A stretch of 64,000 nt of DNA from Prescottella agglutinans. GTDB lineage: Bacteria; Actinomycetota; Actinomycetes; Mycobacteriales; Mycobacteriaceae. This document shows positions 4,391 to 19,948 of the stretch, one piece after another (position 1 is the first letter of the stretch; each line of letters opens with the position of its first letter). The translations under genes and the position numbers were made by a program. The notes under the pieces were generated by a model. The model worked only from the letters and a program-made list of their open reading frames with translations. It ran no database searches and had not been told where the DNA came from. The stretch lies in contig NZ_RKLP01000002.1 in NCBI RefSeq assembly GCF_004011865.1, positions 310,001 through 374,000 of the forward strand, written 5' to 3'.

Positions 4391-4425
4391 GCACCGCCAC
4401 CTCCGTTACCGGTAGGTGGCGGTGC
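4391..4425 (-). terminator. 12-bp hairpin overlapping the tRNA-Leu 3' end
   Basis: GCACCGCCACCT (4391-4402) and its exact complement AGGTGGCGGTGC (4414-4425) flank an 11-base loop. Read on the minus strand, the upstream arm starts inside the 3' end of the tRNA (the last C of the acceptor stem, the discriminator and the CC) and continues into the trailer. There is no clear U-tract. It is probably a terminator or processing element for the tRNA transcript. Confidence 0.6.
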
Positions 4426-4496
4426 CCCCAGTGGGACTCGAACCCACACTCGGCGGATTTTAAGTCCGCTGCCTCTGCCAATTGGGCTATGGGGGC
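4423..4496 (-). tRNA. tRNA-Leu (UAA anticodon), short variable loop
   Basis: The minus strand folds as a 74-nt cloverleaf. The acceptor stem is GCCCCCA/TGGGGGC, with a D-arm containing AATTGGCAGAGGC. The anticodon stem is GCGGA/TCCGC with loop CTTAAAA, so the anticodon is UAA. The T-arm is GTGGG-TTCGAGT-CCCAC, the discriminator is A, and only CC of the 3' CCA is encoded. Leucine tRNAs normally carry a long class II variable arm; here the variable region is only about 5 nt (CGAGT). I name it Leu from the anticodon. A similar short UAA tRNA may exist in mycobacteria, but I could not verify that. Confidence 0.88.
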
Positions 4497-9123: not shown

Positions 9124-9215
9124 CCAGACCGCGCGGTCGTGACGCTTGCCGATATCGGGACCAAAGCCCCATTCCAGACAAAAAAGACCAGGCAGGGGGA
9201 GTTTTTCTAGCGATC

Positions 9216-9234
9216 TTAGGGAATGCTACGTTCA
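9216..9234 (+). promoter_or_regulatory. Weak iron-box-like site upstream of efeU
   Basis: The 19 bases from 9216 match the IdeR/DtxR consensus TTAGGTTAGGCTAACCTAA at 12 of 19 positions by my count, including TTAGG and GCTA. It lies about 80 bases before the efeU start, where an iron repressor could act. The match is partial and the second half-site is poor, so this is a suggestion only. Confidence 0.3.
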
Positions 9235-9316
9235 CCGAAGGCCCTTCCAGGTTTGCCTTGCCTTCCCTCATGACGAGGAGACCGGGCCGTCCCGACTCGT
9301 CCCAGGAGCACATGCC

Positions 9317-10228
9317 GTGTCAGTCCTCGCCGCCGGCGCCGACGCGCCCTCCATCGCCACCCAGTTGTTCGGCAGCGGTCTGATCGGCGTCCGTGAGGGG
9401 CTCGAGGCCGGCATCGTCGTGATGGTCCTCGTCGCGTTCCTCGTCAAGTCCGGCCGGCGTGACGCGCTCAAGTGGGTGTGGATCGGTGTCGGCGCCGCGG
9501 TCGCGATGGTGGCCGTGATCTTCGGCGTCATCCACTTCGGCACCTCCACGGTCACCGGCACCGCCGCCGAACTGATCAGCGGCCTGGCGTCCCTCGTCGC
9601 CGTCGCGATCGTCACCGCGATGGTGCTGTGGATGCGCACCGCCGCGGCGTCGATCTCGGGTCAGTTGCGCGCCGGGCTGGACCGCGCACTGGCCGTCGGG
9701 CCGGCCGCTGTCGTGATGCTGGCCTTCTTCGCCGTCGGCCGCGAGGGCGTCGAGACCGCGCTGCTGCTGGTCGGATACGCGGAGAACACCGCCGGCAGCG
9801 CGTGGCCGCTCGTCGGGCTGCTGCTCGGCATCGTCGTCGCCGCCGTGCTCACCGTGCTGCTGTACGTCGGCGCCGTGCGGATCGACTTCGTCCGGTTCTT
9901 CCGCTACACCGGCGCCTTCCTCGTCGTCGTGGCGGCGGGCATCCTCGCCTACGGCGTCCGCGCGCTTCAGATCGCCGGCTGGCTGCCGGGCGGCTCCACG
10001 CTCGCGTTCGACGCCTCGTCCGTGTTCGACACCTCCAGCTGGTACGGCACCGTGCTGCAGGGCATCTTCAACTTCCGCCCGGACCCGACGGTGCTGCAGC
10101 TCGTCGCGTGGATCGCGTACCTCGCGATCGTGATGCCGCTGTTCCTGCGCCCCGCCAAGGCCAAGGCCGATGCCGCCGCGCCGCGCCCCGAATCGGGCAG
10201 CACCGACACCTCCGTCACCGTTTCCTGA
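9317..10228 (+). CDS. efeU: Iron permease EfeU (FTR1 family)
   Basis: This 303-residue polytopic membrane protein of the OFeT/FTR1 family imports iron across the cytoplasmic membrane. The iron-binding helix signature REGLEAG is at residues 26-32 and a second one, GREGVETALL, is near the middle, as expected for EfeU. About seven hydrophobic helices can be counted. The GTG at 9317 has AGGAG about 8 bases upstream; the frame is open further left but lacks coding character. It is the first gene of efeUOB, 26 bases before efeO. Low-iron or low-pH induction is known for the family. Confidence 0.95.
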   Translation: MSVLAAGADAPSIATQLFGSGLIGVREGLEAGIVVMVLVAFLVKSGRRDALKWVWIGVGAAVAMVAVIFGVIHFGTSTVTGTAAELISGLASLVAVAIVTAMVLWMRTAAASISGQLRAGLDRALAVGPAAVVMLAFFAVGREGVETALLLVGYAENTAGSAWPLVGLLLGIVVAAVLTVLLYVGAVRIDFVRFFRYTGAFLVVVAAGILAYGVRALQIAGWLPGGSTLAFDASSVFDTSSWYGTVLQGIFNFRPDPTVLQLVAWIAYLAIVMPLFLRPAKAKADAAAPRPESGSTDTSVTVS

Positions 10229-10254: not shown

Positions 10255-11388
10255 GTGCGTCGTACCACCTCCGCGCTCGCCCTCCTGGCGATCGCTCCGC
10301 TCGCTCTCGCGGCGTGCACGTCCAAGTCCGCCGCCGGCGCCGAGGCCATCACGGTGACCGCCACCGACACGACGTGCGAGATCTCCGGGACCACCGGCGA
10401 GACCGGCAACACCACGTTCTCCATCACCAACAACGGTTCCAAGGTCACCGAGTTCTACGTCTTCGGCGACGGCGACCGCGTGATGGGCGAGGTCGAGAAC
10501 GTCGGCCCCGGCCTGACCCGTCAGCTGATCGTCAACCTCGCCGAGGCCGGGACGTACCACACGGCGTGCAAGCCGGGCATGGTCGGCGACGGCATCCGCA
10601 GCGAGTTCACCGTCACCGGCGACTCCGTGGTCGCGACCGACCAGGACAGCCGCCTCGCGGAGGCCGCGGCCGGCTACAAGCGCTACGTCGACAGCCAGAT
10701 CACCGCGCTGCAGGAGACCGCGGGCGCGTTCGTGGCCGCGATCAAGGCCGGGGACATCGCCGCCGCCAAGGCCCAGTACCCGCTGACCCGCACCTACTAC
10801 GAGCGCATCGAGCCGATCGCCGAGAGCTTCCCGAACGATCTCGACCCGCGCATCGACCTTCGCGAGGTCGACGTCGAACCCGGCTGGCACTGGACCGGTT
10901 TCCACCGGCTCGAGAAGGACCTGTGGGTGCAGGGGCTGCAGCCCGACACCAACGCGATCGCCGACCAGCTGCAGGCCGACCTCCAGGAACTGATCGACGG
11001 CGTGTCCGCCCCGGACTTCGAGGTCGACCCGATCCAGGTGGCCGGTGGCGCGCAGACGCTGCTCGACGAGATCGCGCGCACCAAGATCACCGGCGAGGAG
11101 GACATCTTCTCGCACACCGATCTCTACGACTTCCAGGCCAACGCCGACGGCTCGCAGGCCGCGATCGCGTCGGTGCGGCCGATCCTCGAGGAGCGCAACC
11201 CCGAGCTCGCGGCGCGCATCGATCAGCGTTTCGCCGACCTCGACGCGGAACTCGCGCAGTACCGCCGGGGCGACGGGTTCGTCTCGTACGACACGGTGAC
11301 CGAGCCGCAGCGGCAGGCCCTGTCGCAGAAGATCGACGCGTTGTCCGCCGAAGTGAGCCAGGTGCAGGGTGTCATCGCAGGACAGTAG
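10255..11388 (+). CDS. efeO: EfeO, imelysin (M75) iron/heme-binding lipoprotein
   Basis: This 377-residue extracytoplasmic component of the EfeUOB system is thought to capture ferrous iron or heme-derived iron and pass it to EfeU. It has a lipoprotein signal with lipobox LAAC at about residues 17-20, a cupredoxin-like domain (about residues 28-125, ending HTACKPGMVGDGI) and an imelysin/M75 domain with GWHWTGFHRLEKDLW, which carries the family HxxE-type metal motif. The GTG at 10255 precedes the signal peptide. The 3' end overlaps the efeB start by 20 bases. Confidence 0.95.
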   Translation: MRRTTSALALLAIAPLALAACTSKSAAGAEAITVTATDTTCEISGTTGETGNTTFSITNNGSKVTEFYVFGDGDRVMGEVENVGPGLTRQLIVNLAEAGTYHTACKPGMVGDGIRSEFTVTGDSVVATDQDSRLAEAAAGYKRYVDSQITALQETAGAFVAAIKAGDIAAAKAQYPLTRTYYERIEPIAESFPNDLDPRIDLREVDVEPGWHWTGFHRLEKDLWVQGLQPDTNAIADQLQADLQELIDGVSAPDFEVDPIQVAGGAQTLLDEIARTKITGEEDIFSHTDLYDFQANADGSQAAIASVRPILEERNPELAARIDQRFADLDAELAQYRRGDGFVSYDTVTEPQRQALSQKIDALSAEVSQVQGVIAGQ

Positions 11389-12685
11389 TCAGCACGGCAG
11401 CAACGACGCGGCCGGCGACGCCCGGCCCGAGCCACGTCCGGGCCTGTCCCGCCGGCGCCTCTTCGGCGCCGTCGGGGCCGGCGCGGTGCTCGCCGGCGCG
11501 GGCGTCGCGGTGGGGCGCCTGACCGCCCCCGAGGCCGCGGCGTCGACCTCCGAGGTGGTGCCGTTCCGGGGCACCCATCAGGCTGGAATCGTCACGCCCG
11601 CACAGGATCGCATGCACTTCGTCGCCTTCGATGTCATCACCGATTCGCGTGACGAGCTGATCGCGATGCTGAAGAAGTGGACCGAGATGGCCGCGCGGAT
11701 GACCGCCGGCGACGAGGCCACCGAGGACGGCGCGACCGGGGCCGGCGAATACAACCCGCCCAGTGACACCGGCGAGGCACTGGACCTGCACGCGTCGAAG
11801 CTGACGCTCACGATCGGGTTCGGGCCGTCGCTGTTCGGCGTCGACGGCAAGGACCGGTTCGGCATCGCCGGCAAGAAGCCCGCGGCGCTGGTCGATCTGC
11901 CGAAGTTCACCGGCGATGCCCTCGAGCCCGCGCGCTCGGGCGGCGACATCGCGATCCAGGCGTGCGCCGACGACCCGCAGGTCGCGGTGCACGCGGTGCG
12001 CAACCTCGCCCGCGTCGGCTTCGGCGTGGTCGCCGTCCGCTGGTCGCAGCTCGGGTTCGGCCGCACGTCGTCGACCTCGACGAGCCAGACGACGCCGCGA
12101 AACCTGTTCGGGTTCAAGGACGGAACGCGCAACATCAAGGCCGAGGACCCGGCCGCACTGTCGGAGTTCGTGTGGGTGGACCCGCAGGACGACCAGGCCT
12201 GGATGGCCGGTGGCTCGTACCTCGTGGCCCGGCGCATCCGGATGCTCATCGAGCCGTGGGACCGCACCACCCTGCACGAGCAGGAGCGGGTGTTCGGGCG
12301 CAGCAAGGGCAGCGGCGCCCCGCTCGGCCGCAAGGACGAGTTCGACGACCTGCAACTCGACGCCAAGGGCGCCGGCGGCAAGCCGGTGATCGACAAGGAC
12401 GCGCACGTACGCCTCGCGTCGGCCGAGGAGCTGAACGGCATCCAGATCCTGCGCCGCGGCTACAACTTCACCGACGGCACGGACGGATTCGGTCACCTCG
12501 ACGCCGGACTGTTCTTCATCGCGTACTGCCGCGACCCGCAGAAGCAGTTCGTACCGATGCAGCAGAACCTCGCCCGCAACGACGCGCTCAACGAGTACAT
12601 CAAGCACGTCGGCTCCGCGGTGTTCGCCGTGCCGCCGGGCGTCGGCGACGGCGGCTACTGGGGGTCGACACTGTTCGAGGCGTGA
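11369..12685 (+). CDS. efeB: EfeB/DyP-type heme peroxidase, Tat-exported
   Basis: This 438-residue dye-decolorizing-type peroxidase oxidises substrates with peroxide. Within Efe systems it is proposed to take iron from heme or to oxidise ferrous iron. The Tat signal LSRRRLFGAVGAGAVLAGAG is at about residues 27-46. The DyP signature GFKDGTRN (distal Asp) lies near residue 250, followed by WVDPQDDQAWMAGGSYLVARRIRM, and the C-terminal GLFFIAYCRDPQKQF is also typical. The GTG at 11369 lies inside efeO, so expression is probably coupled. The stop at 12685 is only 30 bases before the uORF of the next unit, and its promoter probably overlaps the efeB 3' end. Confidence 0.95.
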   Translation: MSSQDSSQHGSNDAAGDARPEPRPGLSRRRLFGAVGAGAVLAGAGVAVGRLTAPEAAASTSEVVPFRGTHQAGIVTPAQDRMHFVAFDVITDSRDELIAMLKKWTEMAARMTAGDEATEDGATGAGEYNPPSDTGEALDLHASKLTLTIGFGPSLFGVDGKDRFGIAGKKPAALVDLPKFTGDALEPARSGGDIAIQACADDPQVAVHAVRNLARVGFGVVAVRWSQLGFGRTSSTSTSQTTPRNLFGFKDGTRNIKAEDPAALSEFVWVDPQDDQAWMAGGSYLVARRIRMLIEPWDRTTLHEQERVFGRSKGSGAPLGRKDEFDDLQLDAKGAGGKPVIDKDAHVRLASAEELNGIQILRRGYNFTDGTDGFGHLDAGLFFIAYCRDPQKQFVPMQQNLARNDALNEYIKHVGSAVFAVPPGVGDGGYWGSTLFEA

Positions 12686-12701
12686 CCCGGCGCGAGGCTG
12701 A

Positions 12702-12707
12702 TAGAGT
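12702..12707 (+). promoter_or_regulatory. Candidate -10 element (TAGAGT) of a leaderless uORF
   Basis: TAGAGT matches the actinobacterial -10 form TANNNT and ends 7 bases before the ATG at 12715, which would place the transcription start at or beside that codon. The -35 region would fall over the efeB stop codon and has no good TTGACA match. The same hexamer appears ahead of rplY at 31925. Confidence 0.4.
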
Positions 12708-12714
12708 GCCGGCC

Positions 12715-12741
12715 ATGGATATCGAGGTCGACAGAATCTAG
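12715..12741 (+). CDS. Eight-codon upstream ORF (leader peptide MDIEVDRI)
   Basis: A short ORF encodes M-D-I-E-V-D-R-I and stops at the TAG 12739-12741. Its stop codon overlaps the first base pairs of a perfect hairpin (12740-12761). There is no Shine-Dalgarno sequence in front of it, which fits a leaderless transcript started by the TAGAGT element. Short uORFs ending in a terminator hairpin are known to sense ribosome-targeting antibiotics ahead of ABC-F, erm and whiB7-type genes. The location 275 bases upstream of an ABC-F gene suggests the same here. This is an inference. Confidence 0.5.
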   Translation: MDIEVDRI

Positions 12742-12763
12742 CCACCGGACTGCCGGTGGCTTT
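12740..12763 (+). terminator. Attenuator-like hairpin ahead of the ABC-F gene
   Basis: AGCCACCGG and CCGGTGGCT form a perfect 9-bp stem closed by the tetraloop ACTG, followed directly by TT (the run TTT spans 12761-12763). It begins at the stop codon of the uORF, so a ribosome paused on the uORF would cover the left arm. It could also simply terminate the efeUOB transcript; both roles are compatible. Confidence 0.65.
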
Positions 12764-13017
12764 GCCGATCCGGCGCGGACCGCGCCTCGGCGAACGACCC
12801 CTACCCTTTTCGGGCTCCACCCCGCATGTCCGCCTCGCGCCGATCACGTCTCCCGCGTGCACAGCGATGTCGACCTTCCCGGCGAACGCATGCCTTCCGG
12901 CACGCAGCCACGTTCCGGGTTCCCGGCGCCTTCGCACGCCTGCTCGACGACTTCTCGTGATCGGTCCGTCCTTCAGCACCGCTGATCAGCAACCTTTCAC
13001 GAAAGGGACGGCAACGC
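12764..13017 (+). promoter_or_regulatory. Leader region with SD-sequestering hairpin
   Basis: This is the untranslated stretch between the attenuator hairpin and the ABC-F start. At 12993-13006 CCTTT and AAAGG pair around the loop CACG, and the right arm contains the AAAGGGA Shine-Dalgarno sequence of the ABC-F gene. No coding frame here is convincing. I could not fold the whole leader to look for an alternative pairing. Confidence 0.45.
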
Positions 13018-14622
13018 ATGAGTGCCTCCGCAATCACTTTGAGAGACATCACCTTCGAATGGCCTGACGGTACGGTCGCCCTCGACCGCGTGAGCGGCAC
13101 CTTCACCGCGGGTCGCACCGGACTCGTCGGCCGGAACGGAGCAGGCAAGTCCACGCTGCTGCGACTGATCGCCGGACTGCTGCGGCCCACGTCGGGTCGG
13201 ATCGACCGTGTGGGTGAGGTCGGATACCTACCGCAGACGCTGACTCTGCGGAAGGACTCGACGGTCGCCGAACTCCTCGGCATCGACGGGATCATCGGAG
13301 CACTCCGGGCGATCGAGTCCGGCGATGTCGCGGCACACCACTTCGACACGGTCGGCGACGACTGGGACATCGAGGCGCGCGCCGACGAAGCACTGCACGA
13401 CATAGGCTTCACCGCCGCAGACCTCGGCCGCCGCGTCGACACCGTCTCCGGAGGCGAGGCGATGCTCATCGGCATCACCGGCCTGCGGGTCCGCCGCACC
13501 CCGATCACCCTGCTCGACGAACCCACGAACAACCTCGACCGCCGCACCCGCGCGCGTCTCGCGGAGATGGTCGACGACTGGACCGGCACTCTCGTCGTCG
13601 TCAGTCACGACCTGGAACTGCTCGAACACATGGATCACACCGCCGAGTTGCACGCCGGGCGTCTGGATGTCTTCGGCGGTCCGTACAGCGCGTGGAAGGC
13701 ATACCTCGAGCAGGAACAGGCCGCGGCGGTCCAGGCCGCCCGCTCGGCCCAGCAGGCACTGAAGGTCGAGAAGCGCCAGAGGATCGAAGCCGAGACCAAG
13801 TTGGCACGCCGCGAACGCACGGCGAAGAAGACCCAGAAGGACGGCGGGATCCCCAAGATCCTGGCAGGGAATCGAGCCAGCAAGGCTCAGGCGTCCGCGG
13901 GGTCGATGCGCTCGACGCTCGAGGCCAAGGTCGAGGCCGCGCAGGCCGCCGTCGATGCCGCGGACTCGCGCGTGCGAGAGGACGAACACCTCCACCTCGT
14001 GCTGCCCGATCCGGACGTGCCACGGAGCCGACGCCTCGTCGAGTTCCGCGACGGAGACCGCACCGTCGTCGTCCAGGGCCCGGAACGCGTCGCGCTCGTC
14101 GGCCCCAACGGGGCCGGCAAGTCCACCCTGCTCGAGCATCTCGTCCACGGCACCGTCGGCGACGAGGATCGGGTGCGCGGCGTGCTACTCACCGAACGAG
14201 TCGGCTACCTCCCGCAGCGACTGGACAACCTCGACGAGGCCAGGAGCGCGCTCGAGAACGTGCAGGAGGTCGCGCCCGGCACGCCCGCCGGCACGATCCG
14301 CAACCAACTCGCCCGACTGCTGATCCGTGGCAGTGCTGCCGACCGGCCCGTCGCGACGCTCTCCGGCGGAGAACGCTTCCGCGTCTCACTCGCCAAGCTG
14401 CTCCTGGCGGACCCGCCCGCACAACTGCTGATCCTCGACGAGCCGACGAACAACCTCGACATCACCAGCGTCGAGCAACTCGCCGAGGCGCTCGACGCCT
14501 ACGGTGGCGCGATGCTGATCGTCAGCCACGACTACGAGTTCCTGCGCAAGGTCGGGATCGATGTCACCGTCGAACTCGACGAGGACGGACGGATCTGCAC
14601 CGATTCGCAACTGGCGCAATAG
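13018..14622 (+). CDS. ABC-F ATPase, probable ribosome-protection type
   Basis: This 534-residue soluble protein has two ATP-binding cassettes and no membrane domain. Cassette 1 has Walker A GRNGAGKST (about residues 38-46), signature VSGGEAM and Walker B ITLLDEPTNNLD. A charged linker follows (AYLEQEQAAAVQAARSAQQ onward, about residues 225-340). Cassette 2 has GPNGAGKSTLL, LSGGERFRVSLAKLL and LLILDEPTNNLD. ABC-F proteins bind the ribosomal E site; resistance members displace macrolides, lincosamides or pleuromutilins. The uORF-hairpin leader favours an antibiotic-inducible resistance role over a housekeeping one. It interrupts the conserved lpqU-mazG neighbourhood. The drug class cannot be read from sequence. 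Confidence 0.92.
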   Translation: MSASAITLRDITFEWPDGTVALDRVSGTFTAGRTGLVGRNGAGKSTLLRLIAGLLRPTSGRIDRVGEVGYLPQTLTLRKDSTVAELLGIDGIIGALRAIESGDVAAHHFDTVGDDWDIEARADEALHDIGFTAADLGRRVDTVSGGEAMLIGITGLRVRRTPITLLDEPTNNLDRRTRARLAEMVDDWTGTLVVVSHDLELLEHMDHTAELHAGRLDVFGGPYSAWKAYLEQEQAAAVQAARSAQQALKVEKRQRIEAETKLARRERTAKKTQKDGGIPKILAGNRASKAQASAGSMRSTLEAKVEAAQAAVDAADSRVREDEHLHLVLPDPDVPRSRRLVEFRDGDRTVVVQGPERVALVGPNGAGKSTLLEHLVHGTVGDEDRVRGVLLTERVGYLPQRLDNLDEARSALENVQEVAPGTPAGTIRNQLARLLIRGSAADRPVATLSGGERFRVSLAKLLLADPPAQLLILDEPTNNLDITSVEQLAEALDAYGGAMLIVSHDYEFLRKVGIDVTVELDEDGRICTDSQLAQ

Positions 14623-19877: not shown

Positions 19878-19948
19878 TCCGCCGTAGTGTAATGGCAGCA
19901 CCTCTGATTTTGGTTCAGATAGTTCAGGTTCGAGTCCTGGCGGCGGAG
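19878..19948 (+). tRNA. tRNA-Gln (UUG anticodon)
   Basis: The cloverleaf is clear. The acceptor stem is TCCGCCG/CGGCGGA, the D-arm contains GTAATGGCAGCAC, the anticodon stem TCTGA/TCAGA has a loop TTTTGGT that gives anticodon TTG, the T-arm includes TTCGAGTCC, and the discriminator is G. The full CCA is not encoded. It sits between tetR and glmU. Confidence 0.93.

Follow-up and report, generated by a model that had tools for sequence, protein, structure and literature searches.

A conserved leader with a predicted leaderless upstream open reading frame and a stop-codon hairpin precedes ABC-F genes in Prescottella agglutinans and other Actinomycetota

The gene abcF of Prescottella agglutinans, which encodes an ABC-F ribosome-protection-like ATPase, lies in a 64,000-nucleotide (nt) stretch of contig NZ_RKLP01000002.1 (positions 310,001 to 374,000), here called the window. 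Positions 12699 to 13017 of the window probably form a drug-sensing 5' leader of this gene. On comparative sequence evidence, the leader is most likely a ribosome-stalling attenuator for drugs of the peptidyl-transferase centre. It opens with an extended -10 element, followed by a predicted leaderless upstream open reading frame (uORF) for the peptide MDIEVDRI and by a perfect hairpin, P1, which starts within the uORF stop codon. These parts had been named in the original prediction as a TAGAGT box, a small ORF and a 9-bp hairpin, and all are present at the positions listed in Table 1. The peptide contains no run of codons for one amino acid, unlike amino-acid attenuators.

Table 1. Positions of the leader parts and of neighboring features in the window
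Feature	Position	Strand	Remarks
Extended -10 element TGATAGAGT	12699-12707	+	TAGAGT 12702-12707, TG 12699-12700; 7 nt before ATG
uORF, leaderless (predicted)	12715-12741	+	ATG GAT ATC GAG GTC GAC AGA ATC TAG = MDIEVDRI*; stop 12739-12741
Hairpin P1	12740-12761	+	perfect 9-bp stem, arms 12740-12748 / 12753-12761, loop ACTG
Hairpin P2 (predicted)	12762-12793	+	immediately 3' of P1; from folding the leader's first 90 nt
Remaining untranslated leader	12794-13000	+	C-rich; leader-body C over G skew 0.25
Possible hairpin on the Shine-Dalgarno side	12966-13011	+	CCGTCC/GGACGG; alternative CCTTTC/GAAAGG 12993-13006
Shine-Dalgarno-like GAAAGGGA	13001-13008	+	read in the sequence
abcF	13018-14622	+	ABC-F ribosome-protection-like ATPase, 534 aa; NCBIfam NF000355 and tree
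efeU	9146-10228		
efeB	11369-12685		other efe genes lie between efeU and efeB
tRNA gene	4423-4496	-	
tRNA gene	19878-19948	+	

A protein search of 14 same-genus genomes, that of the window included, detected a close abcF orthologue (70 to 100% identity) in 10 genomes and only a 47% paralogue in the other four. The -10 box, the uORF, and P1 stand upstream of all 10 orthologues, in nine loci as MDIEVD[RK]I plus P1. The tenth locus, L013, belongs to the 70% orthologue and shows a GTG start and the peptide MLIEVDRL; its P1 arms, GCCGCCGA and TCGGCGGC, are changed on both sides. This comparative evidence bears out the claim that a uORF of leaderless layout, with a peptide unlike the known Streptomyces ABC-F leaders, is tied to the ABC-F gene. 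It is highly improbable that P1 just terminates the efeUOB operon and that the small ORF arose by chance, even though P1 starts only 54 nt past the efeB stop codon and efeB lies within the 1.5-kb upstream flank at 7 of the 10 loci. The gene efeB was detected in 12 of the 14 genomes, and model R1 matches all seven efeB loci at most 1.4 kb from abcF and none of the other five; an eighth match (12 bits, E 0.02, L193) was counted as chance. The element thus tracks abcF rather than efeB, and the identity of P1 as an efeB terminator was rejected. The element also stands upstream of abcF in L005, L011, and L013, whose flanks contain no efeB, and is present in other families, and its T run is weak (only TTT, tail TTTGCCGA).

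The uORF and hairpin are kept in Rhodococcus, Nocardia, and other Actinomycetota, a broader conservation in relatives than the original prediction, which had set it as a test, had claimed. The degenerate pattern [AG]TG-x-IEVD[RK][IL]-TAG, scanned over the genome contigs of 84,980 species, gave 50 matches, 47 of them in Actinomycetota. The carriers belong to Nocardia, Rhodococcus/Prescottella, Oerskovia, Cellulosimicrobium, Arthrobacter, Leifsonia, Leucobacter, Agromyces, Microbacterium, Streptomyces, Microbispora, Nonomuraea, Microtetraspora, and Sphaerisporangium. The three matches outside the phylum (L051, L079, and L086) show by eye no hairpin of the P1 kind and were left out of alignment A1 together with three duplicate rows. 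As a control for chance, a uORF pattern with two mismatches allowed matched 10 of 301 family genomes, and the reversed pattern matched none. The leader family is patchy: besides the genome of the window, it was found in 1 of 245 genomes of a phylum sample, and samples around two carrier genomes gave 7/180 and 16/347, with four carriers previously known in each.

ABC-F protein searches made without the leader pattern gave 23 loci. The leader is found at all 15 loci with an ABC-F identity of at least 69%, 14 of them by R1; in L162 it lies 1.7 kb upstream, outside the fetched flank, and was identified via L065. Of these 15 genomes, eight had already come up in the pattern scan, and the seven new ones all carry the leader, including the 9-codon variants MELIEVDRA and MELIEVDRL. 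Among the eight loci with 58 to 65% identity, the leader is found at one (L180, VLTPEIDRA). It is absent from the distant homologues L175 to L179, L181, and L182, of which L181 and L182 share the short motif GGAAGTCCTTTGATCTGA. R1 further gave 13 secondary matches in 36 genomes: two of class A, the IEVDR type (L118 and L120), four of a class B described below (L121, L126, L127, and L150), a degenerate class-A-like copy without a recognized gene (L119), and six counted as chance (L149 and L151 to L155).

The promoter, P1, and the codons of the uORF are conserved to different degrees. A TAnnnT box stands 6 to 7 nt before the start codon in 40 of 41 leaders, compared with 0.07% of random upstream places, and TGn precedes it in 34. 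This spacing is the one expected for a transcription start at the start codon. P1 folds better than shuffled sequences (z < -2) in 38 of 41 leaders, and the folding energy of the P1 window lies between -12.4 and -18.2 kcal/mol in 39 of 41. Its covariation score is 0.237, compared with 0.127 in shuffles; none of 500 shuffles scores as high, and slid controls reach at most 0.124. Pairing is kept in 88.9% of 360 cells versus 81.3% in shuffles, with two-sided changes in 32 cells versus 10.5. In 18 of 41 leaders, the P2 region also folds more stably than its shuffled versions (z < -2). P1 is the sole stem-loop standing out in a whole-leader consensus fold of 21 leaders, where P2 and a further hairpin are seen by eye. 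A second uORF further down the leader was checked by eye in the 21-leader alignment and rejected, its frame not being kept. Codons 4 to 6 of the uORF are GAG, GTC, and GAC in all 41 leaders, and codon 7 is AGA in 38, AGG in 2, and AAA in 1; of the 1768 Arg codons in the downstream abcF sequences, 21 are AGA. At the seven new loci given by the protein searches, Arg is AGA in five and AGG in one, and L164 and L166 have GTG instead of GTC. An internal Shine-Dalgarno (SD)-like GAGGU was considered as the cause of this codon conservation; since GTG occurs as well (L164 and L166), it is only a possible one. The leader body shows a mean C over G skew of 0.18, above 0.1 in 33 of 39 leaders, compared with 0.10 in coding sequences and 0.03 upstream.

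The genes downstream of the leader are mainly of the resistance type. An ABC-F sequence lies downstream of 41 of the 47 actinobacterial leaders; for L056, L066, and L071 it was recognized in longer stretches of DNA (L125, L123, and L124), and for the other 38 in the initial stretches. Two leaders (L080 and L082) precede a bL32 paralogue and a Cfr-like gene with no ABC-F gene in the 6 kb covered, three have a P450 gene downstream, and L045 has too little DNA to tell. The three P450 cases (L043/L122, L063, and L083) come from three Streptomyces genomes, with the leader ∼490 to 550 nt upstream of the cytochrome P450 gene. The abcF gene is broken in 2 of the 41: the copy of Streptomyces triticirhizae (L041/L128) lacks the middle part, and that of Nocardia australiensis (L071/L124) is a remnant whose two pieces cover roughly its first 60 codons. 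At several further loci, the available DNA stops within abcF. The order in Microtetraspora malaysiensis (L065) is leader, bL32 paralogue, Cfr-like gene, and abcF, and N. australiensis shows the same order up to its remnant. A C-terminal Cfr fragment lies between leader and abcF in L072 and L074, joined in L072 by a bL32 paralogue, and a bL32 fragment lies there in L064. Together, these arrangements suggest a larger operon that was repeatedly reduced to the leader and abcF. Of the second class A copies, L118 (MLIEVDRP) stands before a Cfr-like gene and L120 (MLIEVDRA) before a bL32 paralogue. Cfr-like genes are present in L065, L124, L080, L082, and L118 (Microtetraspora, Nocardia, and Streptomyces), with the bL32 paralogue directly upstream in four. 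The Cfr-like protein of L080 reaches 379 bits for TIGR04432 (Cfr; cut-off 550) and 222 bits for RlmN (cut-off 290), below both cut-offs, and its nearest solved chain is Cfr 9p0p; the bL32 paralogue reaches 70.5 bits for TIGR01031 (L32; cut-off 22.6).

The Cfr-like, bL32-paralogue, and ABC-F genes presumably indicate a response to peptidyl-transferase-centre drugs rather than to macrolides, and the combination of Cfr-like and ABC-F proteins is taken here as a sign of lincosamides, pleuromutilins, streptogramin A, and possibly phenicols. In the mechanism proposed for the leader, transcription would start at or beside the ATG, and a 70S ribosome would begin directly on the 5' end and read the 8-codon peptide. 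The sensing part, as its conservation suggests, would be the core E-x-D-R-x-stop with its Arg from the rare codon AGA. A peptidyl-transferase-centre drug would stall the ribosome when codon 6 occupies the P site and AGA the A site. Codon 6 occupies nt 16 to 18 of the message, and the 5' arm of P1 occupies nt 26 to 34; a ribosome stalled in this position would cover the message up to about nt 31 to 35. With this spacing, the stalled ribosome would cover the 5' arm and keep P1 open, and transcription would reach abcF. With no drug, the ribosome would finish, P1 and P2 would form, and the C-rich untranslated leader would lead to premature termination, probably Rho dependent, or to decay. The richness in C makes an involvement of Rho plausible without proving it.

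A sister class of leaders, class B, shows the same layout before exporter genes. R1 found the peptides MSSPEANRG, MFSPESDRP, MSSPEASRH, and MSSPEASRR (L121, L126, L127, and L150), all of which precede related exporters; that of L127 scores 526 bits for Cmx/CmrA (cut-off 400). Run on 296 genomes, a model made from these four leaders gave three more (L156 to L158), again ahead of exporters of this kind; it also matches the element of the window with an E value of 2.2e-7. In total, the SPE-x-x-R(AGA) peptide and the hairpin layout are found at seven loci, each before a Cmx/CmrA-type exporter. The inducible chloramphenicol exporters cmx and cmr of Corynebacterium and Rhodococcus have a leader peptide upstream, as do the class B exporters, whose leaders share the layout of the window element. 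With AGA in the A site, the penultimate residue of the nascent chain is A or S in class B and V in class A, and for this reason a different set of drugs is expected for class A. Chloramphenicol and linezolid are reported to stall best with Ala, and less with Ser or Thr, at the penultimate position (PMC8987054). Both classes might belong to one phylum-wide family of leaderless arrest peptides, a tentative proposal judged a little short of even, with a core E-x-x-R(AGA)-x and a stop-codon hairpin. In this family, the peptide would set the drug class, IEVDR standing for drugs of the A2503 region (Cfr-like, ABC-F, and bL32-paralogue genes) and SPE[AS]xR for chloramphenicol (Cmx/CmrA). If this is true, Ala or Ser at the penultimate position of class B with AGA in the A site would be the reported stalling context of chloramphenicol (PMC8987054).

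Several observations weigh against a drug-sensing attenuator. L172 (MELIEVPDN) has no Arg, and in L087, at the same place as L169, the spacer measures 9 nt and the start codon is preceded by an SD-like GGAGG. L053 and L055 retain the uORF without P1 (2 of 45 aligned leaders), and L041, the single exception to the promoter pattern, has a -10 box without the final T. The class B loci L157 and L158 have no stop codon before the hairpin, and the frame continues through it; the AGA is kept in both, which suggests that the key position is this codon and not the stop codon. Two of five covariation measures for P1 are not above shuffles (two-sided pairs, 3 versus 2.5; further pair types, 8 versus 8.6). 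The codon bias comes in part from the search pattern, which excluded CGC and CGT, and the coding sequences of the leader-linked genes are also somewhat C over G skewed. The best family of the abcF protein, NF000355, gives 334 bits, below the curated cut-off of 380. At least four T within 8 nt after P1 are found in only 5 of the 39 leaders with P1, and the 37 leaders compared show no enriched pairing of the uORF or of the P1 arms with the downstream leader (mean z, -0.09, +0.42, and -0.16).

The last two points bear on a classical intrinsic attenuator, in which P1 would be the terminator and a downstream segment the antiterminator. P1 is strong, as its folding energies indicate, and follows the uORF immediately, but its T tract is poor in 34 of the 39 leaders, the 37 leaders give no antiterminator signal, and a scan of positions 12500 to 13100 found neither a terminator nor a sigma-70 consensus promoter. 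P1 as a T-tract terminator is not supported, and the original prediction of P1 and its T run as the attenuator terminator is not borne out; an intrinsic attenuator is quite unlikely. Just as improbable is control at the level of translation only, in which the stalled ribosome would refold the leader and free the SD sequence of abcF without a transcription step. Such a precedent exists in part in CplR of Clostridioides, which works at both levels (PMC10201436). Hairpins on the SD side can be drawn in the window, where a second hairpin sequestering the SD sequence had been predicted, but such folding is not widespread: only 2 of 41 leaders have a fold more stable than shuffled sequences (z < -2) in the last 52 nt before the start codon, and SD sequestration is therefore not a general feature. 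In addition, the leader length varies from 195 to 610 nt in 39 leaders (L065 and L072 excluded because of intervening genes), with no enriched long-range pairing.

The leader might also sense no drug at all. It could then be a constitutive leaderless uORF whose structured 5' untranslated region (UTR) fixes the expression level or the stability of the RNA, or it could respond to the supply of arginine or of charged tRNA-Arg (AGA). The lone rare AGA is almost fixed, and leaderless amino-acid attenuators have precedents in Actinobacteria (PMC8079986). This explanation is unlikely, however, since none of the identified downstream genes (ABC-F, Cfr-like, bL32 paralogue, exporter, and P450) is one for arginine metabolism. 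Arginine sensing further fits poorly with the lack of an Arg codon run and with the E and D residues, which are also nearly fixed.

Control of actinobacterial ABC-F genes by uORFs is already known for lmrC, tiaA, and are5sc (PMC8546547 and PMC12421871), and MLV, MRS, and MVGDDDISG are described as Streptomyces ABC-F leader peptides (PMC12421871). Like the leader of the window, the ARE5 leaders of tiaA (MVGDDDISG) and are5sc (TTG-start MLV) are long 5' UTRs that contain a uORF and precede an actinobacterial ABC-F gene, and translation of their uORFs is inhibited by lincosamide, streptogramin A, and pleuromutilin. They differ in having ribosome binding sites, in stalling at the start codon, and in peptides other than MDIEVDRI (PMC12421871). 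The attenuator of lmrC in Streptomyces lincolnensis also belongs to an ABC-F gene, and its uORF2 partly overlaps the terminator hairpin; the available part of the account neither calls it leaderless nor names an IEVDR-like peptide (PMC8546547). In Firmicutes, stalling on a short uORF likewise controls ABC-F genes (VmlR, MIN; CplR, MR[I/M]; and LsaA, MAGN), with uORFs of 3 to 4 codons versus 8 in the window and, in CplR, a terminator with poly-U that sequesters the SD sequence (PMC10201436). The leuL and trpL leaders of S. lividans are also leaderless short peptides with hairpins, some without a U-rich stretch; unlike the leader of the window, they are rich in the regulated amino acid and precede genes for biosynthesis, tRNA ligases, or import (PMC8079986). 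In the literature library searched, no paper joins "IEVDR" and "leader peptide", and the titles listed for related topics, among them ABC-F and chloramphenicol leaders, include none on this peptide; an earlier mention may stand in the uORF lists supplementing PMC12421871. The leader may represent a widespread actinobacterial antibiotic sensor not previously described.

Loci of the MAGDDDISG and TTG-CTC types were also found; their proteins are 43 to 47% identical to the ABC-F protein of the window and lie in another part of the protein tree. This tree comprises 62 proteins and is midpoint rooted, with L036 excluded as too short. The TiaA-like and Are5sc-like labels were assigned by hand; L018, L134, L137, and L146 have no leader match, and L134 is among the TiaA-like rows. 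The loci with these two labels lie across the midpoint root from the IEVDR loci. The IEVDR label requires two changes on the tree because of a nested pair, L178 and L179, without the leader; one change is found in 6% of the bootstrap trees. Groupings across families unite Nocardia thailandica with Leifsonia, Streptomyces with Microbispora, and, weakly, Rhodococcus phenolicus with Nonomuraea, which fits horizontal transfer.

The genome of the window contains a second ABC-F gene (G000:C18:227057-228625, L026; also L017, L023, and L024), whose protein is ∼45% identical. It shows an are5sc-like mini-uORF, TTG CTC CTG TAG, with an SD sequence; an AT-rich box noted by eye ahead of a -35-like TTG resembles the arrangement of WhiB7 promoters.

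In the window, efeB and abcF are separated by 332 nt, and a mazG-like gene lies beyond abcF in convergent orientation. The predicted position of abcF beside mazG applies to the window and to six of nine compared same-genus relatives; the 1.5-kb flanks of L005, L011, and L013 contain neither mazG nor efeB. A scan of the window with Rfam 15 gave only the two tRNAs, and no family matched the leader at its gathering score. In four relatives searched at E <= 1, a single microRNA match far under the gathering score was found, on both strands of L065 and off the leader.

If the proposed mechanism is true, the leader would be a compact sensor that works from nucleotide 1 of the message and seemingly moves together with genes of the resistance type from family to family within Actinomycetota, the Rhodococcus (Prescottella) equi group among them. 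The nearly invariant AGA and the difference in peptide between the two gene classes would make it a case, open to direct testing, in which a leader peptide is matched to the context preference of a drug. The analysis also draws attention to actinobacterial gene sets that unite a Cfr-like methyltransferase, a bL32 paralogue, and an ABC-F protein.

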